From Verrucomicrobiota bacterium (lineage in GTDB: Bacteria; Verrucomicrobiota; Verrucomicrobiia; Limisphaerales; UBA11358), in the NCBI GenBank assembly GCA_028872915.1, contig JAGWNY010000001.1:86642-150641 (forward strand): 64,000 nucleotides of DNA, in the 5' to 3' direction. The notes below the pieces were generated by a model. The model searched no databases. It was not told the DNA's origin and saw only the letters and a program-made list of their open reading frames with translations. The translations under genes were made by a program, and so were the position numbers. Numbering within the stretch: position 1 is the first letter of the stretch; every line of letters starts with the position of its first letter. Below, one piece after another: positions 1,263-55,896 of this stretch.

Positions 1263-1422
1263 TTCCATTGCCTGGGCGCCACGAGTGCGGCTGCCCATTG
1301 AGGCTGAGAAAAAACAGTCAACCAACAACCTGACCCGCAACCTCCGTTGCCACGGAAGTCCTGGTTTAGGCAATGGAGCCTTCAGTCCGATTCGGACAAA
1401 GTCTCCCGCGGTAAAAATTATT

Positions 1423-3090: not shown

Positions 3091-3110
3091 TTGCCGCCCC
3101 GCTTCAAACA

Positions 3111-3142
3111 AAAGGCGGACCACACCCGGTCCGCCTTTTTTT
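3111..3142 (+). terminator. rho-independent terminator after rpsA (convergent with folA)
   Basis: An 11-bp perfect stem AAAGGCGGACC / GGTCCGCCTTT with a 6-nt loop is followed by a run of T (to 3142). It ends where the folA stop codon lies on the other strand. The flanking A-run means it could also act on the minus-strand transcript. Confidence 0.92.
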
Positions 3143-3744
3143 CATCCAGCCAGCGATTTATGGCGGTAATGGACGATCTCGAATTCCGGCTCGTCCTTGA
3201 TCTGCCCGATCATCTCAAACTTTTTCTCGAATGGCGGAAAAAAGGCGTCGCCCGCCACCTCCCGCTTGACGATGGTCAGATACAGGTCCGAACAATACGG
3301 AAGCATCTGCCCGTAAATGTCCGCGCCGCCGCAGATAAATACATCGGTCGGGAAACTTTCCGGGTCGAATTTTCCCGGAGAATAGCGCGCCAGCAAAATG
3401 TCGGTCTGCCCTCCCCGTTCCGACCTCGTGAAATAAAACTCAAATTGATGGGGTCGTTTCAATTTTTCCTCCACGCGCCGTCCGCCGCGCCATTCATGAT
3501 ACTGCCCGAAAATTTCCGGATGCGTCCGGATGAGCCGTTGCGGATGGCGCGTCAACACCACGTTTTTGCGATTGGGCAGCGGATGGCGCAGGCTCTCAAA
3601 CGTCCTGCGACCCATGACCACGACGTTGCCCAGCGTCATTTTTTTGAACCATTTGAAATCCTCCGGCAAATGCCACGGAATCCCCCCCTCCGCGCCAATC
3701 ACGCGGTTGAGCGACATGGCGGCAATGGCCTTGAAATACTTCAT
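3142..3744 (-). CDS. folA: dihydrofolate reductase
   Basis: NADPH-dependent reduction of dihydrofolate to tetrahydrofolate. The N-terminus [20 protein letters not shown], then '[15 protein letters not shown]' and '[11 protein letters not shown]', matches the DHFR substrate/cofactor loops, and '[16 protein letters not shown]' is the second cofactor motif. At 200 aa it is longer than the usual 160. The excess is an insert of about 45 residues (about 80-125) between the 'VVLTRHP' strand and the 'ICGGADIY' motif. It is the last gene of a minus-strand hemE-hemN-folA cluster with an 11-bp gap to hemN. The active-site acidic residue in 'LPEDFKWF' is present, so it should be functional. Confidence 0.93.
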
Positions 3745-3755
3745 TCAGGCCTTTG

Positions 3756-5132
3756 TCAGATGGTCTTGGAATGCTTCCGTTCCCCGCCCGGCGCCAGCGT
3801 GCCGTCAAAGCACATTGCGATATTCCGGATGAACAGCCGCCCGCCAGCCGTCACTTCCAATCCTGTTGGATTGCGGCGCACCAGGCCATCCCCCTCAAAC
3901 GGCTCCAGCGCAGCCAGCTCACCCTCGAAGTGCCGCGCAAAGTCCACGCCGAGCCTCGCGGACATCGCCCGATAATCCAGCGAAAGGTCGCACATCACCC
4001 GCATGATGGTTTCCCGCCGGATTTTGTCCTCGTCCGTGACGAAATAGCCGCGTGCCAGCGGCATTTTATTGTTGTTCAGGGCGCCATAGTAGTCCGCCAA
4101 CTCCTTTTCGTTCTGCCAATACGCGTCTGGAATCTGGGAAATGGCCGACATGCCAAAGGCGTAGATATCCGCGTTGCCGCGCGTGCTGTAGCCTTGAAAA
4201 TTTCGCTGCAACGTTTTGTTCCGCTGCGCGGCGACCAGTTCGTCCGACGGACGGGCAAAATGGTCCATGCCGATATAAACGTAACGGTCGTCCTCCGTGA
4301 GCCGTTCGATCACGTTCTTCAGCAACCGCAACTTCGTTTCCGGCGGAGGCAGGACTTTTTGTTCCAGAATTTTTTGCGCCGGCTTGACCCACGGCACATG
4401 CGCATAACTGAAAACCGCCAGACGGTCCGGTTGCATCTCCAGCACCGCGTCCAGCGTGCGGTTGAACGATTCCACCGTCTGGTGCGGCAGGCCGTAAATC
4501 AAGTCAAAGTTTACCGAGCCGAATCCCAGTTCGCGCGCCCAGTCCAGCGCCTGCTGCGTCATGTCCCGCGGCTGAATGCGATGTATGGCCTGCTGCACCG
4601 CCGGCTCGAAGTCCTGCACGCCCAGCGACGCGCGATTGAAGCCGATTTCCCGCAATGCCTCAATGTGCCCGCGCGACAGCCGCCGCGGATCAATTTCCAC
4701 CCCCGCCTCCGCGTCATCGGCAAACGTAAAATGCCGCCGGATGATCCCGCCCAGCCGGCGGATTTCCTCCGGTCTCAGAAACGTGGGCGAACCGCCTCCC
4801 CAATGCAATTGCACTACCTTGCGCCGGCCGCTGATGCGCGCCGCCATCTCCGCCACCTCCCGTTCCAGGTAATCCAGATACGTTGTGCCCTGTCCATGGT
4901 TCAACGTGATGACCGTGGTGCATCCGCAAAACCAGCAGAGTGTCTCGCAAAATGGAATGTGAAAGTAAAGCGACAGATCCCGGTCCGTCTGGTTGTTCTC
5001 CGCAATTTTCCCCGCGAGCCGCTTCTCTTCCATCGCCTCGGTGAACTTCGTCGCCGGCGGATAACTCGTGTAACGCGGCCCGGCCACGTTGTATTTCTTT
5101 ACCAGGTCCAGATTGACGTTCAGCGCGCTCAT
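3756..5132 (-). CDS. hemN: oxygen-independent coproporphyrinogen III oxidase (radical SAM)
   Basis: Converts coproporphyrinogen III to protoporphyrinogen IX without oxygen, using S-adenosylmethionine and a 4Fe-4S cluster. The N-terminal 'VAGPRYTSYPPATKF' is typical of true HemN. The cluster motif CX3CX2CXC is intact as CETLCWFCGC at residues 62-71, followed by the 'HWGGGSPTFL' SAM-binding motif. At 458 residues it matches the family length and has the C-terminal HemN domain that the HemW paralogues lack in part. It lies 18 bp downstream of hemE and 11 bp upstream of folA, so the three are probably co-transcribed. Confidence 0.95.
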   Translation of the reverse strand: MSALNVNLDLVKKYNVAGPRYTSYPPATKFTEAMEEKRLAGKIAENNQTDRDLSLYFHIPFCETLCWFCGCTTVITLNHGQGTTYLDYLEREVAEMAARISGRRKVVQLHWGGGSPTFLRPEEIRRLGGIIRRHFTFADDAEAGVEIDPRRLSRGHIEALREIGFNRASLGVQDFEPAVQQAIHRIQPRDMTQQALDWARELGFGSVNFDLIYGLPHQTVESFNRTLDAVLEMQPDRLAVFSYAHVPWVKPAQKILEQKVLPPPETKLRLLKNVIERLTEDDRYVYIGMDHFARPSDELVAAQRNKTLQRNFQGYSTRGNADIYAFGMSAISQIPDAYWQNEKELADYYGALNNNKMPLARGYFVTDEDKIRRETIMRVMCDLSLDYRAMSARLGVDFARHFEGELAALEPFEGDGLVRRNPTGLEVTAGGRLFIRNIAMCFDGTLAPGGERKHSKTI

Positions 5133-5150
5133 GCCGTTCCGCAGCCGGTT

Positions 5151-6287
5151 TTATTTGAAATTTACCACGGTTCCCACCAGGGCGGCGATGTTTTCCAGTC
5201 TGGCGCCAGGGGGCACGCCGTGCCCCAGATTAAAAATATAGCCGCAAAATGGCCGCATCTCGTTCAAAATGGCCAAAGTATGCGCCGCAACCCGTTGGGG
5301 CGTAGTCATTAACAACGAAGGGTCCAGGTTGCCCTGAATGCCAACGGTTCCAGGCAATTTTTTTCGCACATCCGCCAACCGCATTCCGTGGCTGATTCCC
5401 AAAACATCCGCGCGGATTCCCGCCAAGTCATCCCAGGCGCCGACGTCCTTGGAAAATACGATCACCGGCGTTTTTGCGTTTTCCCGGGTTTCTTCCGCCT
5501 TCAGCGCCGTCACGATGTCGCGCATCCACCGCCCGCTGGCCGCGAAAAAATCCGCCGCCGGCAGCAGGCCGCCCAGGCTGTCAAAAATCTGCACGGCGTC
5601 CGCGCCGGCGGCAATCTGCATCCGCAGCAGCGTCGTCACTGCGGCCGTCAATTTCTCCATCAACCGCGCGAATGCCTCCGGCTCCTTCTCAAAGAGGTTT
5701 TTGGCGCGTGTAAACTGCTTCACACTGCCGCCTTCCAGCATGAAATTGGCGAGCGTCCAGGGTGAACCGGCAAACCCGATCAGGGCAATCCGCCCGGCCA
5801 ACTCCTTCCTGGCCAGTTCCAGGGCGCGGGAGATGTAATCGAGCCGGTCCGGCAACCCGTCGGTTTCAAGCCGCGCTATGTCGGCGGGCGTTTGCAGCAC
5901 ATAATCCATCTGGATGCCCCCGCGCTCGCGAAACGTGTAGCCTTGTCCAAGTCCCTCCGCGGCGACGAGGATGTCGCTGAACAAAATCGCGGCGTCAAAA
6001 TCGAACCGCCGCACCGGTTGCAGCGTCACTTCGCACGACAGTTCAGGCGTCCGCACCAGTTGAAGAAAATCGTGCCTCGCTTTGAGCCGGCGATATTCCG
6101 GCAGCGCGCGCCCGGCCTGCCGCATCAGCCATACGGGCGGCCGGTCAACCGGTTGGCACCGGCAGGCGCTCAGAAAACGGCTGCGCGCCGCCCGGCGGCC
6201 CGGCCCGCTTCGAGCCGCCGGGGAGTCGTCGGCCGCCGCGGCGCTTTTGTCCACAAATTGGGGAGCAGTTCCGCTCATCGAGTCCAT
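5151..6287 (-). CDS. hemE: uroporphyrinogen decarboxylase
   Basis: Decarboxylates uroporphyrinogen III to coproporphyrinogen III, the step two before protoporphyrinogen in heme synthesis. 'RPPVWLMRQAGRALPEYR' and 'LFSDILVAAEGLGQGYTF' are HemE signatures, and the C-terminus 'NLGHGVPPGARLENIAALV' is the second family signature. The track ORF opens at 6560, but homology starts just before 'VDRPPVWLMRQAGR'. I use ATG 6287 (MDSMSG...), giving 378 aa; ATG 6278 is an alternative. The N-terminal 45 residues are low-complexity Ala/Arg-rich. It is first in hemE-hemN-folA and divergent from the anti-sigma-like gene. Confidence 0.95.
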   Translation of the reverse strand: MDSMSGTAPQFVDKSAAAADDSPAARSGPGRRAARSRFLSACRCQPVDRPPVWLMRQAGRALPEYRRLKARHDFLQLVRTPELSCEVTLQPVRRFDFDAAILFSDILVAAEGLGQGYTFRERGGIQMDYVLQTPADIARLETDGLPDRLDYISRALELARKELAGRIALIGFAGSPWTLANFMLEGGSVKQFTRAKNLFEKEPEAFARLMEKLTAAVTTLLRMQIAAGADAVQIFDSLGGLLPAADFFAASGRWMRDIVTALKAEETRENAKTPVIVFSKDVGAWDDLAGIRADVLGISHGMRLADVRKKLPGTVGIQGNLDPSLLMTTPQRVAAHTLAILNEMRPFCGYIFNLGHGVPPGARLENIAALVGTVVNFK

Positions 6288-6417
6288 AGTCCTAGCATAC
6301 GATTGGGTGATTGGACAGCCTTTACCAACTTTGGCATTCGTTGGGCATTTTTTGCCTGGTTTGGATAAAGGCTTGCCCGGCGCAACTTTCCCCCCGCCGC
6401 GGTTTTTAACGTTCGCG

Positions 6418-6816
6418 ATGAAAAATGAGTCGGACACCCAACTGGATGCGCGGCTGGACCAGGCATTGAAAGGCCTTCGAGACCCGGCGGTGGCTTCCAA
6501 TTTTACCGCCCGTGTCATGCGGGAGATTGACACCTGGGAAGCCCGGCGCGGCCCCACCATGCGGTTTCATCGGTGGTCCTGGCGTTTTTTGTTGCCCCGG
6601 GCGGTTGTGGCCGCCGTCCTGGTGTTTGCCGGCATTGCCGCGCATCGCCACGAAGTCAACGTCCGGCGCGCCGTTCTGGCCGACAGCGTGGCGGTCGTGG
6701 CCATGCAGCCCATGCCCAGTGTGGATGCGTTGAAAAATTTTGATGCCATCCGCCGCATGAGCCAGCCGGCCGCGGCCGATGATGAATTGCTGGCGCTGGC
6801 GCCCGACCTGAAATGA
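6418..6816 (+). CDS. small single-pass membrane protein, anti-sigma-like
   Basis: 132 residues from ATG 6418 (MKNESDTQLDARLDQALKGL). The track ORF starts much further upstream in sequence antisense to hemE, so I discard that part. The layout is an acidic cytoplasmic N-terminus ('LRDPAVASNFTARVMREID', the kind of segment seen in zinc-less anti-sigma factors of this phylum), one transmembrane helix at about 60-80 and a short periplasmic tail. It overlaps the next gene by 4 nt (ATGA), so translation is coupled. In related genomes such a gene often follows an ECF sigma factor; none is present here. The anti-sigma role is inference only. Confidence 0.72.
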   Translation: MKNESDTQLDARLDQALKGLRDPAVASNFTARVMREIDTWEARRGPTMRFHRWSWRFLLPRAVVAAVLVFAGIAAHRHEVNVRRAVLADSVAVVAMQPMPSVDALKNFDAIRRMSQPAAADDELLALAPDLK

Positions 6817-7793
6817 ATTTCCGGCGCCAGCGGCATCGGCAAACCGCCGCCATCGTTACCGCCCTCGCTTTAACCGTTCTTTCAGGGCAGGCCCAGGTTG
6901 CGACGAACTCTCTTCGCAGCCGTTCCGCGCCCGTCGCCATCATGCCTCCTCCCGCCGCCGTCCGCTCGCCTGTGGACTTTTTCCGCAACCTGTTGGAAAT
7001 GCCGCCCCTTCAATTGCACGAGTTCCTGGCCGCCAAACCGCCTGGAATCCGCGTCCGTATTGTTGCCAAAATCCGCGAATACATGGCCCTGGACCCAAAC
7101 CAGCGCGAGCTGAAATTGCGCGCCACGGAATTGCGCTGGTATCTGCTGCCGCTGTTACACGAACCCACCGCCAGTCAGACCAACCAGATCGCCCGAATTC
7201 CCGCAGATTTGCTGCCGCTGGTGCGGGCGCGCCTCGAACAATGGGATGCTTTGCCCTCGCAACTGCGCGGCGAGTTTTTGGATAATGAGCGGACACTCCT
7301 TTATTTCACCGATGTCCAGGGATCAAAATCGAACGTGGCGTCCGTGCCGGCCCGCCCGGCGCCCGCTCCTGGCGACCAGGCCCGTTGGAACGCCCTTTCC
7401 CAAGGCGCCCGCGCCAAAATCACGCGGCAATTCAATGAATTTTTTCAACTGACGCCGGATGAAGCCCGACAGACCCTCCAAACCCTGTCCGCGCCGGAGC
7501 GGGCGCAGATGGAAAGGACGTTGAAGACATTCAACTCCCTTCCGCCCGCGCAACGGCTCCGATGCATTCGTGCGTTTACCGACTTTGCCGGAATGTCGCC
7601 GCGCGACCGGGCTGAATTTCTGAAAAACGCGGCCAAGTGGGCGCAAATGTCTCCCTCCCAACGGCAGGCATGGCGTGACCTTGTGGCGAGTGTGCCGCTC
7701 TGGCCGCCCATGCCGCCCTCGCTCATCATGCCGCCCATGCCGCCCAAACTTCATCCCATGGCCCGCGTCACCGTGGCCACCAATTTGAATTAG
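6813..7793 (+). CDS. DUF3106-type exported protein
   Basis: 326 residues with an N-terminal signal peptide (MNFRRQRHRQTAAIVTALAL ... 'SGQAQ'). The body carries repeated short helical units of the form 'F..LPPAQR...', 'F.GMSPRDRAEFLKN' and 'W.QMSPSQRQAWRDLV', which is the DUF3106 pattern. The C-terminus is Pro/Met-rich. The gene begins inside the stop of the upstream membrane protein, so the two probably work as a pair across the inner membrane. Molecular function is unknown. Confidence 0.78.
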   Translation: MNFRRQRHRQTAAIVTALALTVLSGQAQVATNSLRSRSAPVAIMPPPAAVRSPVDFFRNLLEMPPLQLHEFLAAKPPGIRVRIVAKIREYMALDPNQRELKLRATELRWYLLPLLHEPTASQTNQIARIPADLLPLVRARLEQWDALPSQLRGEFLDNERTLLYFTDVQGSKSNVASVPARPAPAPGDQARWNALSQGARAKITRQFNEFFQLTPDEARQTLQTLSAPERAQMERTLKTFNSLPPAQRLRCIRAFTDFAGMSPRDRAEFLKNAAKWAQMSPSQRQAWRDLVASVPLWPPMPPSLIMPPMPPKLHPMARVTVATNLN

Positions 7794-7841
7794 CCGGCGA
7801 AACCCTCTTTCATTTCCGCGCGCGCCGGTTAAGTTTTGATC

Positions 7842-8681
7842 GTGCATCCGATTGCTTTTCACCTGGGACCGCTGACGATTCGATGGTATGGCGTCATGAT
7901 CGCCCTCGCCTTCCTCTTCGGCTTGTGGACGGCCATGCTGCGCGCGCGGCGCGAGGGAATTCCGGCTGAAAAAATTGGCGACGTGGTCCTTTGGATCATG
8001 GCCGGGGCGATTCTTGGAGCGCGCATCGTCTATGTGACCACATATTGGCGGGAGGAATTTGCCGGCCAACCCTTCATCGAAATTTTCATGATTCAGCGGG
8101 GTGGCCTCGTTTATTACGGGGGGTTCATTGGCGCCATCGTCGCCGGCTTTCTTTATCTGCGCTGGAAACGGCTCCCTTTATGGCGGACAGCCGACGTGCT
8201 CGCGCCCAGCATCACCCTCGGCAATGTGTTTGGCCGCGCCGGTTGCCTGCTCAACGGCTGCTGCTATGGACGGCCGACGAACGCACCCTGGGCAATCCAA
8301 TTCCCCAACGGTTCCTATGCCTGGTATCATCAGTTCTACGATCAACACCTGTCCGGCGTCACAGCCAACGGGCCGGCGCTGCCCGTTCATCCCACCGAAA
8401 TCTACGATGGCCTGCTCAACCTCCTCGTTTATTTCTTCCTGGCGTGGCTCTTCCGCCGGAAAAAGTTCGATGGCCAGGTCTTTGCAACCTGTCTCCTTTG
8501 TTATGGCGTCACGCGCTCCATCAGCGAAGCCTTCCGCGGCGACTATTCATCATTGCACTATCACCTGGGCCTTTCCCCGGGACAATGGCTCAGCATCCCC
8601 ACCTTCATCGCCGGCCTGTTCCTCGCCGCCATTTTGTCCCGCCGCGGCCCGATGCGCCGCGGATTCCAACCGGAGGGTTGA
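7842..8681 (+). CDS. lgt: prolipoprotein diacylglyceryl transferase
   Basis: Transfers diacylglycerol from phosphatidylglycerol to the lipobox cysteine of prolipoproteins in the inner membrane. The signature 'GRAGCLLNGCCYGRPT' is complete, the N-terminus 'HPIAFHLGPLTIRWYGVMIA' and the 'YYGGFIGAIVAGFLYLRW' segment match Lgt, and 'GFRGDYSSLHYHLGLSPGQW'-type C-terminal sequence is present. The track ORF starts at TTG 7836; I prefer GTG 7842 (MHPIAF..., 279 aa). The stop overlaps the next start (TGAATG), so lgt and miaA are co-translated. The OppA lipoprotein in this window would be one substrate. Confidence 0.95.
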   Translation: MHPIAFHLGPLTIRWYGVMIALAFLFGLWTAMLRARREGIPAEKIGDVVLWIMAGAILGARIVYVTTYWREEFAGQPFIEIFMIQRGGLVYYGGFIGAIVAGFLYLRWKRLPLWRTADVLAPSITLGNVFGRAGCLLNGCCYGRPTNAPWAIQFPNGSYAWYHQFYDQHLSGVTANGPALPVHPTEIYDGLLNLLVYFFLAWLFRRKKFDGQVFATCLLCYGVTRSISEAFRGDYSSLHYHLGLSPGQWLSIPTFIAGLFLAAILSRRGPMRRGFQPEG

Positions 8682-9668
8682 ATGCGCGGTTCCGCTGCGC
8701 CAATCGAACCTCCCTTTGCGCCGGTCTTTATCGCCGGTCCCACCGCCGTGGGAAAATCCAGCATTGCCCTCGTCCTCGCCGAACTCCTGGGCGGCGAAAT
8801 CATTTCCGCCGATTCCATGCAAGTCTATCGCGGACTGGACATCGGAACCGCCAAACCCCCGGCCGCCGAACGGCGCCGCGTTCCCCACCACCTCATTGAC
8901 GTCTGCGAGTTGCGCGAATCCTTTGATGCCGCCCGATTTGTGTCCCTCGCCCGCGCCGCCGTCGCCGAAATCCAGGCCCGAAAAAAATTCCCCATCTTCT
9001 GCGGCGGCACCGGCCTCTATTTCCAGGCTTTCCTCGGCGGCCTCGGCCATGCGCCCTCGCCGGATGAATCCCTGCGCGCCAGCCTGGAAAAAACGCCGCT
9101 CCCGGAATTGCTGGCCGAACTGCGCGAACGCGACCCATCCACTTATGAACGAATTGACCGCCAAAATCCACGCCGCGTCATTCGCGCCATCGAGGTGCTT
9201 CGCCTGACTGGAAAACCATTTTCCGCCCAGCGCGCCGACTGGAAAACCGGGAACGTCTCAACCCCGATTTATTGTCTCACCCGCCCCGCCCCCGCGCTGC
9301 GCGCGCGAATTGCCGCGCGCGTGGATGAAATGTTCCGGCGCGGGCTGGTTGAAGAAACCCGGCGCCTGCTCGAACGCGGCTTGGAAGGGAATCAAACCGC
9401 CATGCAAGCCATTGGCTATCGCCAGGTGGTCAGCCATTTACGCGGCGGGCGCAACCTGGACGAGACCATTGAACTGGTCAAAGTCCGCACCCGGCAGTTC
9501 GCCCGCCGGCAAATGACCTGGTTTCGACGCGTCGGAAATTGCCGATGGATCGAATTGGAAGATTCGCAGTCCCCTCAATCCGCCGCCCTGCAATTGAAAG
9601 GGCACATCGAAGCGGGGAAACGGGGCGCGGCTGGCGGGGAGCGCATCAGTTTGAAATCTTCAGTTTAA
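8682..9668 (+). CDS. miaA: tRNA dimethylallyltransferase
   Basis: Adds a dimethylallyl group to A37 of tRNAs that read UNN codons. The P-loop 'AGPTAVGKSS' lies at residues 18-27 and is followed by the diagnostic 'IISADSMQVYRGLDIGTAKP'. Later motifs 'FCGGTGLYFQAFLGGL' and 'AMQAIGYRQV' are also present. The length of 328 aa is normal. The start codon follows the lgt stop directly. The C-terminal 30 residues are probably disordered. Confidence 0.95.
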   Translation: MRGSAAPIEPPFAPVFIAGPTAVGKSSIALVLAELLGGEIISADSMQVYRGLDIGTAKPPAAERRRVPHHLIDVCELRESFDAARFVSLARAAVAEIQARKKFPIFCGGTGLYFQAFLGGLGHAPSPDESLRASLEKTPLPELLAELRERDPSTYERIDRQNPRRVIRAIEVLRLTGKPFSAQRADWKTGNVSTPIYCLTRPAPALRARIAARVDEMFRRGLVEETRRLLERGLEGNQTAMQAIGYRQVVSHLRGGRNLDETIELVKVRTRQFARRQMTWFRRVGNCRWIELEDSQSPQSAALQLKGHIEAGKRGAAGGERISLKSSV

Positions 9669-9775
9669 ATTTCCCGGCCAGCCATTCCAGCGGAACTTTC
9701 TCAAGCAGCGGGGAATCGCCGCCGGGGCGCATCGCCCCCCTTGCATCCTTTAACCAGGCATTTAACCAAGCATTC

Positions 9776-9803
9776 TTGCGCTCGCGGCCTTTTCGGCTAT
9801 GAT
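9776..9803 (+). promoter_or_regulatory. candidate promoter for moeB-like gene
   Basis: TTGCGC and TATGAT (5/6 match to the -10 consensus) are separated by 16 bp. The -10 box ends 14 bp before the ATG at 9818, so the leader would be very short. Upstream lie a GGGGCG-CAT-CGCCCC hairpin without a T-tract (about 9724-9738) and a short direct repeat TTTAACCAGGCA/TTTAACCAAGCA. Confidence 0.35.
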
Positions 9804-9817
9804 GTTGAACTCGATTT

Positions 9818-10966
9818 ATGGAATTGAATAACGACGAAATCCGGCGCTACTCCCGGCATTTGATCCTTCCGGAAGTCGGCGTGGGCGGCCAAAAAAAGCT
9901 CAAGAACGCCAGTGTCCTCTGCATTGGGGCGGGAGGACTTGGCTCCCCCATTGCCATGTACCTGGCCGCCGCCGGCGTTGGCAGGCTTGGCATCGTGGAT
10001 TTCGACACCGTGGACATTTCCAATCTCCAGCGCCAGATTCTGCACACGGACGCGGACGTGGGCCGCTCCAAGGCCCAGTCCGCCAGCGAGACCATCCACG
10101 GCATCAATCCTCATTGTCACGTTGTCCTCCACAACGCCCGCATTTCCTCCGAAAACGCCCTCGACCTCATTGGCCCCTACGACGTTGTCGTGGACGGCAC
10201 GGACAATTTTCCCACGCGCTATCTCACCAACGACGCCTGCGTGCTCTTGAAAAAGCCCAACGTCTATGGCTCGATTTTCCGCTTCGAAGGGCAGGCGAGC
10301 GTTTTTGCGCCGTCGCTGGGGGGTCCCTGTTACCGCTGTCTGTATCCGGAGCCGCCGCCGCCGGGCATGGTCCCCAGTTGCGCCGAGGGCGGAGTGCTCG
10401 GCGTTTTGCCCGGAATCATCGGCTGCATTCAAGCGATTGAAATCCTCAAACTCCTTCTCCGCAGGGGAAGTTCCCTGGTCGGACGTTTGCTCTTGTTCAA
10501 CGCGCTGGAAATGAAATTCAGGGAACTGAAACTCCGGCGCGATCCGGAATGTCCGGTCTGCGGCGAACATCCAACCATTCATCAATTGATTGATTACGAG
10601 CAATTTTGCGGCATCCTGCCCGAACCGGATGCTTCCCAGGCCAATCCGGACGAGGTCACGGTGCAGGAGATGAAAAAGGCCCTGGAGAATCCCGGCCTGG
10701 GTATAAAAGTTATTGACGTTCGCGAGCCGGACGAATACGAAATCGCCCACGTTAACGGCGTTCCCCAGCTCCCGATGAGCCAGCTTCGGCAACGCTTCAC
10801 GGAATTGGACCCCAACACCCAATACTACATCCATTGCAAAACCGGCGTCCGCTCCATGACGGCGCTTCAGTTCCTGCGCCAACAGGGGTTCAAGTATTTG
10901 AAAAACGTCAGGGGCGGCATTGATTCGTGGTCCCGCGAAATTGATTCCTCCGTCCCGCGATATTAA
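9818..10966 (+). CDS. E1-like adenylyltransferase with C-terminal rhodanese domain (MoeB/ThiF/MoeZ-like)
   Basis: Family members activate the C-terminal glycine of a ubiquitin-like sulfur carrier (MoaD, ThiS or CysO) by adenylation, and fused rhodanese domains then pass on sulfur. Residues 1-250 show 'RYSRHLILPEVGVGGQKKL', the nucleotide loop 'GAGGLGSPIAMYLAAAGVG', 'NLQRQILH', and the zinc cysteines in 'CYRCLYPEP' and 'CPVCGEH'. Residues about 280-382 are a rhodanese with 'VIDVREPDEYEIAHVNG' and the catalytic loop 'HCKTGVRS' (Cys near 340). No sulfur carrier is encoded nearby. An IscU-like scaffold follows after 15 bp. Which pathway it serves cannot be settled from sequence. Confidence 0.9.
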   Translation: MELNNDEIRRYSRHLILPEVGVGGQKKLKNASVLCIGAGGLGSPIAMYLAAAGVGRLGIVDFDTVDISNLQRQILHTDADVGRSKAQSASETIHGINPHCHVVLHNARISSENALDLIGPYDVVVDGTDNFPTRYLTNDACVLLKKPNVYGSIFRFEGQASVFAPSLGGPCYRCLYPEPPPPGMVPSCAEGGVLGVLPGIIGCIQAIEILKLLLRRGSSLVGRLLLFNALEMKFRELKLRRDPECPVCGEHPTIHQLIDYEQFCGILPEPDASQANPDEVTVQEMKKALENPGLGIKVIDVREPDEYEIAHVNGVPQLPMSQLRQRFTELDPNTQYYIHCKTGVRSMTALQFLRQQGFKYLKNVRGGIDSWSREIDSSVPRY

Positions 10967-10981
10967 ATCCCGCCGCCCTCC

Positions 10982-11461
10982 ATGACCGACGATCTGCAAA
11001 AGCGCATCCAGGCCGCCCTCGCGAATCCCCAAAACATGGGCGAATTGGCCGGCGCGGACGCCGTCGGCGCCGTTGGCAACGCGGATTGCGGCGAAATGCT
11101 CCGCCTCTGGGTCAAGTTCAAGGAGCAGAACGGCAAAAAAGTCATTGATCGCGCCACGTTTCAATCGTTTGGCTGCGAGACGGCAATCGCCGTTGCCAGC
11201 CTGGCCACCGAATTGATCCGCGGCAAGACTCCCGCTGAAGCGCTGGCCCTCAAGACTGAAGAACTGGCCGGCGAACTCGGCCCCTTGCCGCCCATGAAAA
11301 TTCATTGCGCGCAACTCGTGGAAGGCGCCCTGCGCGCGGCCCTTGAACCGCAGTCGGCGGAAAACAAAACGCCGGCGCAGCCCGGCGCCTCAACGCTTCT
11401 GGACAGCTTTTCCAAGCACCCGGAAGGCGTCAAACTCACCTTTCTGGACCCCGGTAAATAA
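10982..11461 (+). CDS. IscU/NifU-N-like Fe-S scaffold protein
   Basis: 159 residues. Scaffolds of this family assemble Fe-S clusters on three conserved cysteines. Here they are Cys36 ('NADCGEM'), Cys65 ('FGCETAIAVASLATELI') and Cys109 ('KIHCAQL'), with normal spacing. The residue two after the first Cys, Asp in classic IscU (CGD), is Glu here. The LPPMK-like chaperone-recognition segment appears as 'LPPMKIHC'. A 40-residue tail with no clear homology follows. It sits 15 bp after a MoeB-rhodanese gene, with no cysteine desulfurase, ferredoxin or HscA/B nearby, unlike a standard isc operon. Confidence 0.85.
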   Translation: MTDDLQKRIQAALANPQNMGELAGADAVGAVGNADCGEMLRLWVKFKEQNGKKVIDRATFQSFGCETAIAVASLATELIRGKTPAEALALKTEELAGELGPLPPMKIHCAQLVEGALRAALEPQSAENKTPAQPGASTLLDSFSKHPEGVKLTFLDPGK

Positions 11462-11478
11462 TCCGCGCCGGAACACTC

Positions 11479-13695
11479 TCACGGCAGCGGTTCCGCCGGA
11501 TTGGTGCTCTCTTCCACCGGCGCCGGGGCCGGGACAGCCTGAACCGCATTGTATTTCCGCCGCAACCGCAGCCGTTTTAGTTCATTTCGCTTTTCTGCCT
11601 GGATGAGTTTGGCTTCCTGCTGGTCGTTCTCGGCTTCGGCCGCGGAAATGCCGGGCAATTGCGCCTCCTCCTTGGCCGTCTGGGCCGCCGCCAGTTCCGG
11701 CGTTGGCAGGACCGTGGGCCGCATTAATACCACCAATTCTTCGCGGTCCTTCTGACTGCTGCGGGCGCTGAACAGGGCGCCCAAAAGCGGAATCCGGTCC
11801 AAAAGCGGGATGCCGTTGTTCGACCGGCGGATGTCGGAACGGATGAAACCACCCAGCATGATGGTGTCCTTGTCCTTGACAATTACCTGGGACGACAGCG
11901 TCCGCTTGTCCGTATTGGGCACGGCGTTGCCATTGATGGTCGTGCTGCCGCTGATGTCGTCAATTTCCTGCTGGATTTGCATCACGACGACGCCGCCGGG
12001 ATTGATATAAGGCGTCACATCCAGTTCCACGCCCACCGACAACTGCGAATAGGTGGATTGCGGGTAGCCGTTGTATCCATACCCGTAGCTCGTGCCGGTA
12101 ATATATGGGACGGTCTGGCCCACAAAAAATTGGGCTGCGGTGGCCTGGGATGTTTCGATTCGCGGGCGTTGGATGATGTTGATATCGCTGTCGGCTTCCG
12201 CCGCCTGCACCGCCACGTCCCATGTCGGTCCGAGATTGCCAAAATAGCTGAAGCCGTTGTTTGGCAGCGTGGAGGTGAAACTGCCTGGAAACGCGTTGGA
12301 GGTGACGCTGCCGCTGACCGCTCCCAGGAAATCCAGAAAGGGCGGACCGCCGGGATTGAGCATTCCGCCCGCGCCCTGGATATTCGGCCCGAGGGTCCTG
12401 GGATTTTGCGCGGCTGAAACGCCGTACGTCAGGCCCTTGTTCAACCCCACGTCCATGATGATGGCGTCAATAAGCACCTGGGGCGGCGGCACATCCAATT
12501 GTGAAATCACTTTCTTGATGCGTTCCATGTCTCCGCGCGTGGCGAAGACCAAAAGCGAATTGTTTTGTTCATCCGCCACGATCTTGGCCTGGCCGAACAC
12601 CTCGATCTTTCCCTCTTTGTTCAGCCCCGCCGCCCCCTGCAAAATGCTCCGCAGACGGCTTTGAAACGTGGCCGGCGGCTGATACTGCTCGGGAACGTAG
12701 GACTGCGGCGTGACCGGGTCCGTCATGTACGAAGGGCCGACCGGTTCCGGTGAAAACGATTGGGGCCGATACCCGTTATTGATCCCATTTTCGACGCCAT
12801 TGCCAAAAGGACTGCCGCCCCGGTTCATCGTGTTGGGCGCGAATCCGCTCACGGGCGCCGGGGCCTTGCCCCCTCCGATGGCGACCGTGGCGCCGCCGCT
12901 CCCAAGGCTGTTCAACGCCTGCGCGATGTCATCGGCCTTCTCATACTTGATGGGAATGACTTCCGAGATGTATTCCTGCGGCACGCTCACGTCTATTTGC
13001 CGGATCATCTCCAGCATTCTCTTGACGTTTTCGGCATAGTCACGGATCACAAGAATTCCGTTGCTATCCAGCGGAATGATGGAATTGACCCGGGCCAGCG
13101 GCTGAAGAATCGGCACAATGTCCGTTGGCTTGACGTATTTCAATTGCACGATATGGGTCACATAAGACCCCAAATCGGGCAGTTGGCTGGCCATGTTGTT
13201 TGTATCGAGGCCTTCTCCCGCCCCCGCCGCCTCGGGCGTCGTGACCACTTTTACGAATTTATCGCCGATGGGGATGACGACAATGTTGTTCATGCCCAGC
13301 ACGGCCTGCAGCGCCTCGATGGCCTCGCTTTTTGTCAACGGGCTTTCGGTTTTCAAAACAATTGTCGAAGCGGGCAGTTGCGCGTGCAGCAGCGTGCGCC
13401 CCACCAACCCGGCATAAACGTCCAATACCTGCTGCACCGGTACCCCCTCGTAATTGAACTGATACCCCGGAACCTCGGCCGGAGCCGCCGGAGGCGCAAC
13501 GGCCGGAGGCGCAACGGGCGGCGGCGCCGGCATGTTGGGCAACGAGGGCAACGGCGCGCGGCCGGCGGGCGCCGGAATGCGCGGCCGGGGCCGCACTGGA
13601 AATGAGGGATGCGCGGAGGGCGCCGGCGGCATTTGCGCCCAAAGGCACCCGGCCGTCAGACCGTACAAAAACAGGATAATGGGGGTTGTCTTCAT
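11479..13695 (-). CDS. gspD: type II secretion / type IV pilus secretin GspD-like
   Basis: Outer-membrane secretin of 738 residues, forming the gated exit channel. An N-terminal signal sequence ends near 'GLTAGCLWAQ' (the Cys makes lipoprotein processing possible). A Pro/Ala-rich linker of about 60 residues follows, then an N0-like domain ('YQFNYEGVPVQQVLDVYAGL'), N1/N2 KH-type domains ('VQLKYVKPTDIVPILQPLA', 'VIPIKYEKADDIAQALNSL') and N3. The C-terminal secretin domain ends with 'DTIMLGGFIRSDIRRSNNGI' and 'PLLGALFSARSSQKDREELVVLMRPTVL'. The tail after it is charged, then Pro-rich. It overlaps the gspM-like stop by one base (TAATG), so it is the last gene of the cluster. Confidence 0.93.
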   Translation of the reverse strand: MKTTPIILFLYGLTAGCLWAQMPPAPSAHPSFPVRPRPRIPAPAGRAPLPSLPNMPAPPPVAPPAVAPPAAPAEVPGYQFNYEGVPVQQVLDVYAGLVGRTLLHAQLPASTIVLKTESPLTKSEAIEALQAVLGMNNIVVIPIGDKFVKVVTTPEAAGAGEGLDTNNMASQLPDLGSYVTHIVQLKYVKPTDIVPILQPLARVNSIIPLDSNGILVIRDYAENVKRMLEMIRQIDVSVPQEYISEVIPIKYEKADDIAQALNSLGSGGATVAIGGGKAPAPVSGFAPNTMNRGGSPFGNGVENGINNGYRPQSFSPEPVGPSYMTDPVTPQSYVPEQYQPPATFQSRLRSILQGAAGLNKEGKIEVFGQAKIVADEQNNSLLVFATRGDMERIKKVISQLDVPPPQVLIDAIIMDVGLNKGLTYGVSAAQNPRTLGPNIQGAGGMLNPGGPPFLDFLGAVSGSVTSNAFPGSFTSTLPNNGFSYFGNLGPTWDVAVQAAEADSDINIIQRPRIETSQATAAQFFVGQTVPYITGTSYGYGYNGYPQSTYSQLSVGVELDVTPYINPGGVVVMQIQQEIDDISGSTTINGNAVPNTDKRTLSSQVIVKDKDTIMLGGFIRSDIRRSNNGIPLLDRIPLLGALFSARSSQKDREELVVLMRPTVLPTPELAAAQTAKEEAQLPGISAAEAENDQQEAKLIQAEKRNELKRLRLRRKYNAVQAVPAPAPVEESTNPAEPLP

Positions 13696-23341: not shown

Positions 23342-24007
23342 TCATTCGCTCGCCCCTGGCCGGTTTTGACCGCTCGCTGACACTAGCCGGGCACGCAATG
23401 CTTTTATTACGAGCACGCAAGGCAAAATGGCAAAGATGATGATCGGATACCAAAGGCTGATCATAAGCGTCCACCAGTTCTGCGCCTTGTCAACGCTATG
23501 GAATATTCGACTGAAGAAAATTCCGTAACCGATAAATACCGTTGCTGACGTTCGGTCGTTGTCAGCACAGCCTATCATATTTCCAGTATGGATCCCCGAC
23601 CCGTATTTGATTCCGAAATGAACAAACCCGACACGGTTCGTAATTCTATCGTTGGGAGCGAAAGCGAAACTCGTATTAAGCTCGTAAGGGAAGTTTTGAC
23701 TATAAACAACCAAATAACAACCAGACATATCTCTTACATAGCCCTTTTGAATGGCAAAATGAACTCTGTTACCACCATCGTACAGATAAGTGAACATACC
23801 GGGGTGATTTTTGTCGCGCGATGGTTGCAGACTGTGCGCAATTGCAATCCCGCCGCGTCCAATCGAAATTGAGCACCAGTCATCTTGACCGGAACGAGTC
23901 TCAAAAGGTTCCGGATTGGCCATACGAACCCAGCAGTAAACGCCGATGGTCCCCAGCAACAGGATTGCCGACGCAAATGTAAACCAAACAAGCAGCCTTT
24001 CTCTCAT
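23342..24007 (-). CDS. two-helix membrane protein of unknown function, low G+C
   Basis: 221 residues from ATG 24007, 7 bp after the stop of the RHS gene. It has one transmembrane helix near the N-terminus ('LLVWFTFASAILLLGTIGVY'), an extracytoplasmic domain of about 140 residues with four cysteines, and a second helix at the C-terminus ('LWYPIIIFAILPCVLVIKAL'). I do not recognise a family. Base composition is unlike the neighbours: I count 74 G+C in 180 bases for 23581-23760 (41%), versus 63% in a sample line of rpsA. Position directly after an RHS protein raises the possibility of an accessory or immunity role, but nothing in the sequence proves it. Confidence 0.7.
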   Translation of the reverse strand: MRERLLVWFTFASAILLLGTIGVYCWVRMANPEPFETRSGQDDWCSISIGRGGIAIAHSLQPSRDKNHPGMFTYLYDGGNRVHFAIQKGYVRDMSGCYLVVYSQNFPYELNTSFAFAPNDRITNRVGFVHFGIKYGSGIHTGNMIGCADNDRTSATVFIGYGIFFSRIFHSVDKAQNWWTLMISLWYPIIIFAILPCVLVIKALRARLVSASGQNRPGASE

Positions 24008-24014
24008 AGGTACA

Positions 24015-27000
24015 TTAAAATCCAAATTCTTTCCTGAGCGTTGCTCGTGATGCGGGCGTAACGACGAACGGGGTAAAAAGGTACGCTGATTTCCCTAAAA
24101 AACTCCCCTCGCTGATGTCACCAGTTGTGCCACCGCCGAAGAAATGCACGGCGTCATAGTTGCCGCCGGCGTTCCCCCAGATCCCTTCGTGGGCAAGAAT
24201 ATTTACCCAGGTTTGCGTGCCTACGTTCCTACTGGATTGCGCAGCGAATTCCTCGACCTTTTCGTCGCTGATCTGTATCAACCCGTGACCGTCCCGACTG
24301 GACTGGGTCCCGTACAACCGCCAAATAACCCGATTAACGTATCTGTGCTTGGGCGATCCAATCCATCCGCGAGTTCCTCCGCCACCGGCCTCGACATGGA
24401 CTCTTACTCCCACGCTTCGTCCGGCAGGCGGGCTGTCGAACACCTTGGCCGACAATTCGGATTGCAACGTCGTTTGAACGGCATTCGCATTAAAACTTGG
24501 TGGCATACCGGCTGGATCAACGCTGAAATCCACGATTATTGACGCCGCAAACGAGATCGTATTAACAACTGCTCTCGCGGACGCCATCGCTTCCGCGCCG
24601 ATAGCGCCAATGGAAATGGCATCGAATGAAGCACTGATATCCATCACCGTCAAGACCTCGCCAAGCTCATGCCCACCCGGATCGGCGTTGTTGGCGGGAT
24701 TATCCTCCGTGAAAAGGTAGCGGTGGAGCGATAGCGGGTCCTCAGTATTCCCTTCAAACGTGTCCCTTGTCCAAAACCGGCCTGTAACCGGATTCATGTA
24801 GCGGGCGCGGAGATAATAGAAGCCGATATTCGGATCGTATTGCTGGCCGGTGTAGAGATAATCATTTGGCGTCGTGCCCGTGCTGGCAAGAAAATCCCCA
24901 AACGCATCGTACGTGTAGGTATCGGAAATCGTCCCGTTCGCGGCGGTGAGGAACCGTGTATTGCCGTTCCCGTCGTATCCGTAAAAACTCGTCGCGCCGC
25001 CGGATTGCCGCTGGCTGATAAGGTTGAGGCCATAAGCGTAAAGGCGGCTTGGCGTGGAACCAATCGTCGTCAATTCTTCCAAAACTTGCGCGTAACCGGA
25101 TGGGTTGCGGTCATCAACAAGATAAAAGTTTGTCGTCGTGCCGACGACTTTCTCCACTCGATTCCCATCGCCGTCATAAACAAATTGGACGTTCGTCCCG
25201 CCAACCACGGCGTTGGTTAGACGGTTCTCGACGTCGTAAAAATAGCTGTTCCCCGCAGAATTCGTCGTGCTGCCGTTGGCATCGTAGTTATCGGTGGTTA
25301 ACTGGTTGTCCGTGTTGTAAGCGAATGATTGGTTGCCAACGCCACTCACCGTGGAAGTCCGATTCGTCCGATTGCCCACGGCGTCGTATTTGTAGCTGAT
25401 ACTGCCGCCGCCGGACGCAACAATGGTTTCGTTGGTCAGCCGATAGAGCGGGTCGTATTGCCATTGGTTCGTCCGGCTGACGCCATTGATCGTTTCAACG
25501 AGGTTGGTGCGGTTGCCCGCGGGCGCGAGTTGATAGACAAAATTCGCAAACGTGCCGGTGCCGGTAGTTGACGTTAAATTTGTCAGCCGGTTGAGCGAGT
25601 CGTAGCTGTACGAGTTGGTGACGCCATTGGGCAGAACCTCCGTTTGCAGGTTGCCCACGGCGTCGTAGCCGTAAATGGTCGAATCGTTGAACCGGTCAAT
25701 GACGTTGGTCAGCCGCATGAGCGAATCGTAGTAATACGTCAGTTGCGCGCCGTTCGTGGTCGAGGAGGCGATCCCATACAGATTGCCAAAGCCGTCGTAG
25801 CTGTAGGTCAACGTTCCTTCGGGGCCGGCCTTTGTCTTCAGACGGCCCATGTCATCGTAGGTGTAGCGGGTCGTCCCGCTGGCGTCCACCATGTTTGTCC
25901 GCTGGCCGGCGGGCGAATAAGCAAAGGCAACGTGGCAGCCGGCGATGGACGTTTTGTTCATCAATCGGTTCAGGGCATCATATTGATTGGTAACGACGAC
26001 ATCGTTGAAATTCGTTTCGCGGATGAGATTGCCCGCGGCGTCGTAACCGGATGTCGCCACCTGATTGCCGGGGAGCGTTTCTTTTGTGCGCCGCCCCATA
26101 CCGTCATATTGGAAGAAGTTGGTGCGGTTCAGAGCGTCAATCTGCTGGAGCATGTTCCCCACTTCATCATAAACGTAGCGCGTGACCATTTGCTGGCTTG
26201 TGCCAAAGGCGTTCGTCACCGCCGTTAACCGGCCCAGCGTGTCATAGCCGTATCGCGTGACGATGTTCGCCTGATTCGTCACTGCAATGCGATTGCCGAT
26301 GGCGTCGTATCCATAATTCTCATGCGTGCCGTCCGGATAAATCCTCTCGATTTGGCGGGCAAGGGCGTCATAAACGTAAATGTTGGTGTGATTGAGCGCG
26401 TCAATGACGGAGGATTGGTTGCCATCCGCGTCGTAGGTGAATTGCGTCACCTGATTCAAGGCGTTGGTCTGGGCAACGCGGTTGCCCGCCGCGTCGTAGG
26501 CATAATGGGCGGTCGCTATCGTGGATGAATAAGGCGGAAGAAGTCCGCCGCCGCCGTTGGGCGCGGCCGTCCGCGTTTGGGCCGTGGCCTGGCCCGCCAG
26601 ATTATAAATCGTTCGGTTGACCTCGCCGTCGGCCTGGGCCGTTTCCAACAACTGGCCCGTGGGATTGTAAAAATAGGACGTGGCATTGCCGTCCCGGTCC
26701 ACGGAGTTGGTCCGGTTGCCGTCCGCGTCATAGGCGTAGCTCTCGAACGTGCCGTCCGGGAACGTCTCGTTGGTCAGCAAACCGTCCGCGTCGTAGAAGA
26801 ACTGGTTCGTCCGGCCCAGGTCGTCAATGGTTTGGGCTTGTTTGCCGATGGCGTCATAAACGACCGAATTGGTGAAACCATCCGCGTCAATGGTCTGAAT
26901 CACGCGATTGGCGGCATCGTAAACCCATCGCGTGACAACCGGGCCGGCGACGCGCAACCGGGTCTCGTTGGTTTTGTTGCCATTGCCGTCATAGGCGTAG

Positions 27001-29636
27001 CTGGTCTGGCTCAAGAGCTGCCCTTGGGCGTTCAACGCGCCCGTTCCGACGAGGTCGCCGAACGAATCGTATTGATTGGTGACGATCACCTCTTCCGGCA
27101 GGCCCAACGCATTGGTCACGCCGGTCTGGTCGCCCTTTGAATCGTAGCCGTGGCGCGCGACGATGCCCACGGCATTGGTTGTGGCGAGCAAATTGCCATT
27201 GGCATCGTAGCCATTCGTTGTGCCATGGCCCAGGTTGTCAACGGAGACCAGCACTTCGCCAAATCCGTTGTAGGTGGCACTGGAAGATTGGCTCAGCGCG
27301 TTGGTCTGGCCGATCAAATGACCGTTCGAATCGTAGGAATAATACGTCGGCTGGGCGATGGCGTTGGTCTCGGCAATCCGGTCTCCCTGCGAATCATAAC
27401 CGTAACTCGTCACGCCCCCGTCGGCATTCTGCACGCTGGCCAACGCTCCGGCGGCGGTGAAGGTCTGGGTGGTCGGAAAACCGCTTCTGTCCGTGATGGT
27501 CTGCTCGTGGGTGACGGAGTCGTAGCCGTAGGTGATGGCACGCCCATAAGCGTCATATTGCCTGGATAAACGCCCTTCCGAATCGTATTCGTAGCGCGCG
27601 GAAACGATCCCGCGCGGGTCGGTTATGGACGTGACGTTGTGCGGGAAAACCGCATTGGTGTAGGCGTAGCCGGTGTTTTGATAAATTGCCGGGCTGCGCT
27701 GAATCAGTTGCGCGACATTGGTCAAATTCCCGCCGCCGTCATAGGAATACACCAGAACCGGCGAACCACTGGTGTTGATCGCAATCGGGTCATAAATGTC
27801 CGTAACGCGGTTGTTGCCGTCCCGCGTAAACTGAATTTGCCGCCCCGCGCTGCTGCTGATGCCCGATAAACTGAAAGAAAGCGTGTTGCCATTGCGGTCC
27901 TTTTCCCAGGCAACGGTTCCATCCCCGTTGAAGCCATATTGTGTTCCGTCCGGCGCGGTAAACGTGAATTGCGAAAAATCCGGGTCGTAATTCTGTCCCG
28001 TGGGAAATGGCGTGCTGTCAAACCATGCCGCCGGCAACGATTGGTTCCAGCCGCTCAACTGGTCGTCCATCCCCACCGTGTCTCCGTTGTAATCCGAGGG
28101 GTGTGCCACGCTCAACTGACCCTGGCCCAGCGGCGTGCAAACCAGGTGAACCCAATAGGAATTGTAACCGTCCGGCGTGGATGAGGAATTGATGGATGGA
28201 CTGCCGCTCAAATCAAAATCCAATTGCGCCACGAAATAATACCTCGAACCGTCCGCCAGCGTCACCGTGACCAGATGTTGGACGGACGGGTTGATCGCAT
28301 AGCTGATCCCGCTGCTCGTGCCATACCAGCCCGTCGCCAGGGAACCCGATTTCTCAATCTTGACGTTCTCGTAATCCAGCCTCCAATCGTTCCCAAAACC
28401 GCCGCTGGTGCCATACCGCGTGTCGTAGTCGCGGGTAACGGCGATGGGCAGGCCCGCCGATGGAATTTGCAGGTCGTTCAACGTCATCGTCACCTGCCCC
28501 ACGTTCGTGGGCCAGGCCACCGTGACGTTCACCGCGCTGGATGCCAGGCTGAAATTGTTCGGGTCCGTTGTCTGTGCCACGGCGGTTAGCGCCAAATTCC
28601 CCGATGAAACGTCCTTCCAATTCAAACTGAACGTGCTGCCATCGGAAGTGCTCCCCGCGCCAACAAACGTCGAATTGGCATAGAATAATAATTGGGTCAC
28701 GCTCCCGCTGCCGCAACTGGCCGTGGCCTGCAACAGAAAGTTCGTGGGCACCGTATAGGTGGAACCGTCCGCCGGAGCCGTCATTGAGACCGAAAGCGTG
28801 GTGTTGTAGGCAATCGTCACCTGGCTGGAATTGGTGTATTGCCCGTCGCTGGCCGAAAGCTCCAATACATAGATGCCAGCCGCGCCGAAACTGGCCGTCG
28901 TGTTCGTTTGATGCGAATTGCCAAACGTCACCGCCCCCGGCCCGCTGATCTTCGTCCAATTGGTGAACTGAACCCCGCCCCCCGTCAGCCCGTCATCCGT
29001 CACGTAGCCCTGCAATGTCGTCGAAGAACTGCCGATGTTCTGTTGCGGCCCGGCGTTGACAACGGGCGGACTGTTGATGGAATACGTGGCGCCGGCCACC
29101 GCGCTGTCGTTGTAGCCGGCGGCAAAAGCCCTGGCCTTGAGGGTCGTGACGCCGGAAACATAAATGCTGCCCCCATTGTAAATGTAGGTGGACGACGTGG
29201 TGGGCGTGCTGCCGTCCGTCGTGTAATAAATCGCAGCGCCCGGCGTGCCGCACGTGACAACGACGTTGGTGGCGGTGGCGTAGCTGCCGCCGCCGGGCGT
29301 GAAAACAGGCGTGGCAACCGTCGGCGTGCCAATCGGCGCGATGCCGGCGGCAAAGAAGGCCATGTCATTCGTCGGCTTGGGCAAATCAAACGTCACCTGG
29401 CCGACCGCGCCGGTGGTGAGGCGCGTCCATCCCGGAAGCGGAACGGTCAAATCCGGCGCGAAGAAAATAATTTGGGCGTTTGTGGACGCCGCGCCGCTCA
29501 ACGTCAATTCCACCGTGTTGGTGGATGGAAACGTCGGAGGATTGATCATCAATTGCGCCCACAGTGAAAAGGGCACAGCCATGTAAATGGCGAAATAAAC
29601 GCACAGAATCCGAGTGAACAAACCCAGCTTTTTCAT
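24015..29636 (-). CDS. giant secreted RHS/YD-repeat protein with unique C-terminal domain
   Basis: 1873 residues with a signal peptide (MKKLGLFTRILCVYFAIYMA ... 'LWAQ'). Domains in order: a beta domain 'FFAPDLTVPLPGWTRLTTGA' (about 35-95), a chitobiase-type bacterial Ig segment 'IYYTTDGSTPTTSS' (about 130-190), a PKD/Ig-like region (190-370), the 'LPIAVTRDYDTRYGTSGGFG' entry to the RHS shell (about 395-420), then some 900 residues of YD repeats from about 680 ('YEYDSEGRLSRQYDAYGR'). The RHS core 'IGFYYLRARYMNPVTGRFW' lies near 1610 and 'EDNPANNADPGGHE' near 1650. About 220 residues of unrelated sequence follow, with 'NILAHEGIWGNAGGNYDAVH'. RHS proteins encapsulate and deliver C-terminal toxins or act as adhesins. 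No PAAR/VgrG is nearby; Sec export is implied by the signal peptide. Confidence 0.92.
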   Translation of the reverse strand: MKKLGLFTRILCVYFAIYMAVPFSLWAQLMINPPTFPSTNTVELTLSGAASTNAQIIFFAPDLTVPLPGWTRLTTGAVGQVTFDLPKPTNDMAFFAAGIAPIGTPTVATPVFTPGGGSYATATNVVVTCGTPGAAIYYTTDGSTPTTSSTYIYNGGSIYVSGVTTLKARAFAAGYNDSAVAGATYSINSPPVVNAGPQQNIGSSSTTLQGYVTDDGLTGGGVQFTNWTKISGPGAVTFGNSHQTNTTASFGAAGIYVLELSASDGQYTNSSQVTIAYNTTLSVSMTAPADGSTYTVPTNFLLQATASCGSGSVTQLLFYANSTFVGAGSTSDGSTFSLNWKDVSSGNLALTAVAQTTDPNNFSLASSAVNVTVAWPTNVGQVTMTLNDLQIPSAGLPIAVTRDYDTRYGTSGGFGNDWRLDYENVKIEKSGSLATGWYGTSSGISYAINPSVQHLVTVTLADGSRYYFVAQLDFDLSGSPSINSSSTPDGYNSYWVHLVCTPLGQGQLSVAHPSDYNGDTVGMDDQLSGWNQSLPAAWFDSTPFPTGQNYDPDFSQFTFTAPDGTQYGFNGDGTVAWEKDRNGNTLSFSLSGISSSAGRQIQFTRDGNNRVTDIYDPIAINTSGSPVLVYSYDGGGNLTNVAQLIQRSPAIYQNTGYAYTNAVFPHNVTSITDPRGIVSARYEYDSEGRLSRQYDAYGRAITYGYDSVTHEQTITDRSGFPTTQTFTAAGALASVQNADGGVTSYGYDSQGDRIAETNAIAQPTYYSYDSNGHLIGQTNALSQSSSATYNGFGEVLVSVDNLGHGTTNGYDANGNLLATTNAVGIVARHGYDSKGDQTGVTNALGLPEEVIVTNQYDSFGDLVGTGALNAQGQLLSQTSYAYDGNGNKTNETRLRVAGPVVTRWVYDAANRVIQTIDADGFTNSVVYDAIGKQAQTIDDLGRTNQFFYDADGLLTNETFPDGTFESYAYDADGNRTNSVDRDGNATSYFYNPTGQLLETAQADGEVNRTIYNLAGQATAQTRTAAPNGGGGLLPPYSSTIATAHYAYDAAGNRVAQTNALNQVTQFTYDADGNQSSVIDALNHTNIYVYDALARQIERIYPDGTHENYGYDAIGNRIAVTNQANIVTRYGYDTLGRLTAVTNAFGTSQQMVTRYVYDEVGNMLQQIDALNRTNFFQYDGMGRRTKETLPGNQVATSGYDAAGNLIRETNFNDVVVTNQYDALNRLMNKTSIAGCHVAFAYSPAGQRTNMVDASGTTRYTYDDMGRLKTKAGPEGTLTYSYDGFGNLYGIASSTTNGAQLTYYYDSLMRLTNVIDRFNDSTIYGYDAVGNLQTEVLPNGVTNSYSYDSLNRLTNLTSTTGTGTFANFVYQLAPAGNRTNLVETINGVSRTNQWQYDPLYRLTNETIVASGGGSISYKYDAVGNRTNRTSTVSGVGNQSFAYNTDNQLTTDNYDANGSTTNSAGNSYFYDVENRLTNAVVGGTNVQFVYDGDGNRVEKVVGTTTNFYLVDDRNPSGYAQVLEELTTIGSTPSRLYAYGLNLISQRQSGGATSFYGYDGNGNTRFLTAANGTISDTYTYDAFGDFLASTGTTPNDYLYTGQQYDPNIGFYYLRARYMNPVTGRFWTRDTFEGNTEDPLSLHRYLFTEDNPANNADPGGHELGEVLTVMDISASFDAISIGAIGAEAMASARAVVNTISFAASIIVDFSVDPAGMPPSFNANAVQTTLQSELSAKVFDSPPAGRSVGVRVHVEAGGGGTRGWIGSPKHRYVNRVIWRLYGTQSSRDGHGLIQISDEKVEEFAAQSSRNVGTQTWVNILAHEGIWGNAGGNYDAVHFFGGGTTGDISEGSFLGKSAYLFTPFVVTPASRATLRKEFGF

Positions 29637-50500: not shown

Positions 50501-50580
50501 GGCTGAAATAATTATCTGCTTTAACCAACAAAATTAGAGATATGACTTGCGGCGGGAGGCAAAAATTCCAAAAATTCAGC

Positions 50581-50609
50581 TTGACTTCGTTTCGGGTTTC
50601 GTGTGTATT
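50581..50609 (+). promoter_or_regulatory. candidate sigma70 promoter for the beta-helix gene
   Basis: TTGACT (50581-50586) and TGTATT (50604-50609) with the ideal 17-bp spacer, about 67 bp upstream of ATG 50676. Confidence 0.5.
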
Positions 50610-50675
50610 CGTCGGCGTGGATTTCGCTCGACGCATGACGCTGCTTTGCTTGTGCCTCTGAGGCGAATCCAGGCC

Positions 50676-55554: not shown

Positions 55555-55643
55555 GGAGAGGTGGCAGAGTGGTTTAACGCGCACGCCTGGAGAGCGTGAA
55601 TACCCAAAAGGTATCGGGGGTTCGAATCCCCCCCTCTCCGCCA
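55555..55643 (+). tRNA. tRNA-Ser (anticodon GGA)
   Basis: A full class II cloverleaf: acceptor GGAGAGG pairs with CCTCTCC, D-arm GTGGCAGAGTGGTTT, anticodon loop CTGGAGA giving GGA (reads UCC and UCU), a long variable arm (TACCCAAAAGGTA), T-arm GGGGGTTCGAATCCCCC, discriminator G and an encoded CCA. Its 3' third serves as an integration site (see the attL/attR-like repeats). Confidence 0.96.
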
Positions 55644-55646
55644 GTT
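55617..55646. other. attL-like site: 3' end of tRNA-Ser
   Basis: GGGGTTCGAATCCCCCCC-TCTCCGCCAGTT, the T-arm, acceptor and CCA of tRNA-Ser plus 3 bases. It is repeated at 56915-56945 with one extra C in the C run. Intact tRNA on this side marks it as the attachment site regenerated by the element. Confidence 0.82.
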
Positions 55647-55841
55647 CGATTCGAGAGGTTTTTCGCGCTGATGCGCGAGAATGGTCGTGGGGTCGGAATT
55701 AAAGTCGGCCCAGTAAATCCACGGGTTTTTGAACTCCAGCCGCAACGTTTTATCCCCCACTTGAAAGTTCGAACCGATGTTTTTGAGAAAACCGCGTTTT
55801 CTCTCCGCGTTTCCTTCGGCGAGCAATAGAACCGCTTGTTA
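55644..55841 (-). pseudogene. C-terminal remnant of a serine recombinase
   Basis: On the minus strand the reading frame gives 'AERKRGFLKNIGSNFQVGDK' followed by 'TLRLEFKNPWIYW', then runs out through the attL core into antisense tRNA. 'K/R..FL..IGSNF....KTL' is the C-terminal motif of zinc-ribbon serine recombinases. An in-frame stop lies just upstream (about 55842-55846) and no catalytic domain is present. I regard it as a stump, identified by motif memory only. Confidence 0.5.
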
Positions 55842-55896
55842 CGTCCGCGCCGGACAGAAGGGTTGCAGTTGGATGGAAGATCCGGCAGATTAACCC

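Follow-up and report, generated by a model that had tools for sequence, protein, structure and literature searches.

Within the window, the whole 64,000-nucleotide stretch of Verrucomicrobia subdivision 3 DNA analysed here, an open reading frame on the reverse strand (24015..29636) encodes an RHS/YD-repeat protein of 1873 residues (RHS_repeat, E = 6.8e-88), with GGAGAA preceding its ATG. Its N-terminus is a hydrophobic, signal-like segment and a probable Sec signal peptide (MKKLGLFTRILCVYFAIYMAVPFSLWA, residues 1–27; 29556..29636, reverse strand), as read from the sequence and a hydropathy peak only. Pfam places CHB_HEX_C_1, PKD and Big_7 domains in the N-terminal half of the protein, and we counted 19 RHS repeat stretches along the 1873-aa chain. 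An RHS repeat-associated core domain (TIGR03696, Rhs_assc_core; 53.1 bits against a cut-off of 32.5) spans residues 1576–1656 (24669..24911, reverse strand) and ends as NP..N..DPGG, so that RHS repeats and an RHS-associated core domain, both features of RHS polymorphic toxins, are present in the same protein. Elsewhere in the window, a right-handed beta-helix protein of 1624 residues (50547–55421, forward strand; Beta_helix, E = 7.9e-37) is likely to be a further large surface protein, and a 327-aa frame (55574–56557, reverse strand) has a low GC3 (0.56) and no Pfam match. At its 3' end this frame overlaps a tRNA-Ser gene (55555–55643, forward strand); it may have been inserted at the tRNA, or may be no real gene.

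The RHS core is followed by a tail of ~218 residues (24018..24671, reverse strand) that stands outside the RHS/YD repeats, in agreement with a first-pass annotation of this DNA, which had described an ending of about 220 residues unlike YD repeats. This tail, the proposed effector domain, had no match among Pfam and NCBIfam models with the threshold relaxed to E ≤ 1, and no credible one in PHROGs, PADLOC or the PDB, where profile matches to antibodies and a designed protein were noise. It occurs once in its own genome (a match on contig C46, E = 0.16, was not credited) and is carried by two of the 49 genomes of the genus. Elsewhere in the order (320 genomes) no convincing copy was found; weak matches there (L004–L008, L025, L026 and L028) fell in unrelated proteins or probable non-gene frames and were taken as chance. 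Searches across 388 genomes of the phylum yielded no credible relative, one match (G582) having been read and not credited; the viral contigs searched contained no relative, and plasmids gave nothing credible, the matches returned from them being discounted.

The only clear relative of the tail is found in an uncultured Verrucomicrobia subdivision 3 bacterium of the same genus (CAIQKM010000079.1, hereafter G222), where it likewise forms the C-terminus of an RHS protein and is an open frame of similar length. Identity between the two tails is about 32–34% (62/194 = 32%), below that of the two cores (54% over 99 aa in their last part; 34/57 at the core end). The best-conserved 15-residue block of the whole tail (24153..24197, reverse strand; H1816, E1817, W1820 and D1828) reads LAHEGIWGNAGGNYD in the window and LAHESIWLNAGQNWD in G222, with 11/15 positions identical and the consensus LAHE[GS]IW[GL]NAG[GQ]N[YW]D. 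It covers the stretch NILAHEGIWGNAGGNYD, in which E1817 comes directly after H1816 (24191–24189) and Trp, not His, occupies position 1820, giving HExxW where a zincin has HExxH. The first-pass annotation had noted an AHE without the second His of that signature, and this is borne out in both tail members; because the G222 tail shares HExxW within its most conserved block, the missing His is inherited and not an error. His-Glu is thus retained in a fast-changing domain, two thirds of which has altered between the homologues, and by this conservation the motif is judged to be more than chance.

Directly downstream of the RHS gene, a 221-aa frame (23342..24007, reverse strand) encodes a membrane protein with a transmembrane helix at each end and a loop of ~150 aa; 7 bases separate its ATG (24007) from the RHS stop. 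The G222 counterpart is shorter but built alike, and it begins 14 bases past the RHS stop. Both partners carry NPEP following the N-terminal helix and WWTLxxSxWYP at the C-terminal one, and their similarity (z = 9.0 against window-shuffled sequences) was equalled in none of 1000 shuffles. Basic residues at both ends of the partner suggest that its termini are cytoplasmic and its loop periplasmic. The contig of a third genome (G295) starts inside a close partner relative, leaving the preceding gene unreadable, and the flanks inspected around five further relatives in the genus contain no RHS gene, so that the partner family is not specific to RHS loci. Among the 320 genomes of the order, the family turned up in seven, all of this genus. 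Stand-alone members at L040, L041, L042, L049 and L051 are small two-TM proteins with a WTLxxSLWYP-like end, and those in G239 and on G222 contig C68 adjoin other small membrane proteins. With such stand-alone members in its family, the partner is a good but still putative candidate for an immunity gene.

Other RHS core regions of the same genome, on contigs C13, C56 and C69, all bear different tails, so that the C-terminal module varies between otherwise alike proteins. On C13, a complete RHS gene is followed by a shorter frame (L017, G000:C13:8000–26000; frames of 3397 aa at 1331–11524 and 415 aa at 12070–13317), and their core ends are nearly identical (ARVDSYGPVDGYPALSLESSPLTAAHLAWRGKWRD...DPDGRFGK) while their tails differ. 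The 415-aa frame, which has its own signal-like start, is by analogy a putative displaced toxin cassette, a pattern described for polymorphic toxins (PMC3482391), in which the 3' toxin part is replaced together with the immunity gene. Base composition follows the same boundaries, GC3 falling from a mean of 0.74 in the core to 0.58 in the tail, below every 224-codon core window (minimum 0.65), and to 0.50 in the partner gene, a value below that of every other frame among the 32 checked across the window; such a drop is as expected of an exchanged cassette. In a synteny comparison at recJ across 20 genomes of the genus, galM lay downstream in one and RHS or SDR neighbours in none, and no empty site was readable. 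We also asked whether every RHS protein of the genus bears this tail, the pattern named beforehand as counting against an effector, and found that this is not so. A variable, effector-like C-terminus, as earlier proposed, accordingly stands: two of 49 genomes carry this tail, the same genome carries others, and a membrane gene adjoins it in both cases.

Whether the tail is related to zincins is less clear. By hhalign, its profile similarity to two Bacteroidota zincins amounted to 9% probability. Scanning 85,000 species genomes with W[VA]N[IV]LAHE, a pattern derived from the motif itself, led to a Marivirga HELGH protein that scored z = 8.8 against the window tail (BLASTP 8e-07 in a single comparison). 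The similarity is local, with Marivirga WVNVLAHELGHG...NLMDYSEGSFLHK aligning with WVNILAHEGIWGN...GDISEGSFLGK of the tail and WVN[IV]LAHE and SEGSFLxK common to both; the G222 tail scored z = 2.0 against this protein, giving no support for a zincin link. No intermediates joining the tail to HExxH proteins were found in the 388 phylum genomes. AlphaFold models of the tail were of low confidence (pLDDT 44 and 39.5), making their Foldseek matches meaningless, and the model was no better when the Marivirga domain was added to the alignment. The order of elements predicted in the low-confidence model at pLDDT 44, beta-alpha-beta, then a helix with HE, then a further helix, fits a small zincin but is only suggestive. 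The zincin-like motif of the first-pass annotation therefore keeps a local similarity to an HExxH protein on its side, which the profile comparison, Pfam, the PDB and the two low-pLDDT models leave unconfirmed. We consider a zincin relationship quite possible, if somewhat short of probable; the tail is not to be filed as a zincin, yet may still act like one or descend from one.

The large Bacteroidota HELGHG...NLMDYS proteins (Marivirga arenosa, L021; Persicobacter, L055) resemble the tail in WVNxLAHE, seen in Marivirga, and in the SEGSFLxK of the window tail, but they differ from it in having a full HExxH and a Met-turn-like NLMD, and the Marivirga frame has no RHS repeats by Pfam. Tox-MPTase1-5 and HopH1-like zincin toxin domains resemble the tail in their place at the end of RHS proteins and in a His-Glu pair within a predicted helix, but HExxH is the defining signature of every one of them (PMC3482391), against HExxW in the tail. 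Among Verrucomicrobia, an RHS protein of Pedosphaera parvula bears a PVC-metallopeptidase tail of the HExxHxxQ-E family (PMC3482391), a signature that the window tail lacks although both are verrucomicrobial RHS proteins. With Sec-exported RHS polymorphic toxins (PMC3482391) in general, the protein shares a probable signal peptide, a core ending in DPxG and a variable C-terminal module, and its genome shares a small gene directly downstream and short displaced copies with other tails; unlike in known systems, neither the tail nor the partner falls into a described family, of toxins in the one case and of immunity proteins in the other.

The locus is, in our view, probably that of a polymorphic RHS toxin in which a new family of effector tails and a linked immunity gene are exchanged as a cassette. 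Observed directly are the position of the tail, its conservation and rarity, the variation of tails within the genome, the partner gene beside it in each of the two known cases and the compositional break; the layout of tail and partner is, by analogy, the usual one of bacterial toxin/immunity cassettes. According to this model, the RHS protein would be exported via Sec and either displayed at the cell surface or released from it, its YD-repeat shell carrying the C-terminal effector module of ~218 residues. The module would be delivered into neighbouring, probably related, cells, to which it would be toxic, and the downstream membrane protein, with both termini in the cytoplasm and a periplasmic loop, would protect the producer. 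Exchange at the 3' end of the RHS gene would move tail and partner gene together. The activity of the tail would probably depend on the conserved His-Glu, which lies on a predicted helix; the tail would most likely be a zincin-like hydrolase with non-canonical ligands (HExxW and a later Asp), or a relic of such an enzyme. A fully specified version, with a zincin-like fold, the second His replaced by Trp, an unusual ligand set or no metal, and a two-TM immunity protein with a periplasmic loop, strikes us as rather unlikely.

The strongest alternative, possible but somewhat doubtful, is a toxin with a different fold, in which AHE sits within another active site and the likeness to zincins is coincidental. 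It departs from the polymorphic-toxin reading favoured here in tail chemistry only, and our confidence in the two overlaps. Neither profile comparison nor Pfam detects a zincin, polymorphic toxins employ many folds (PMC3482391) and the structure prediction left the C-terminal half of the tail unmodelled, all consistent with this alternative; the strand-helix-strand arrangement before the HE helix is nevertheless the order expected of a small zincin, and the two motifs held in common with the Marivirga HExxH protein also argue against coincidence. The adhesive tip that the first-pass annotation had offered beside an effector fares less well. The tail would then be a pseudo-zincin or another non-catalytic binding domain, the RHS protein a surface adhesin with a ligand-binding tip, and the membrane protein unrelated or structural. 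The absence of the second His from both members, the N-terminal domains typical of surface proteins and the stand-alone partner relatives would suit such an adhesin, but retention of His and Glu while two thirds of the tail changed is unexpected once catalysis is lost, and the differing tails of one genome and the pairing with a partner better fit a toxin cassette, so that we hold the adhesin to be improbable. That AHE is meaningless in a decaying, non-functional tail, as its rarity and incomplete motif might hint, is largely refuted by the G222 homologue, with its open frame of similar length, the motif as the top conserved block and the partner kept, and we give it hardly any credence.

As a type, the system at this locus is known and ordinary; what is new is the tail family, and its conserved but incomplete motif is the main interest. 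To our knowledge, few polymorphic-toxin tail families have been described from Verrucomicrobia. Such tail families are a steady source of enzyme activities new to science, and here two genomes have preserved a small tail–partner pair together, one that comes with a hypothesis on specific residues.
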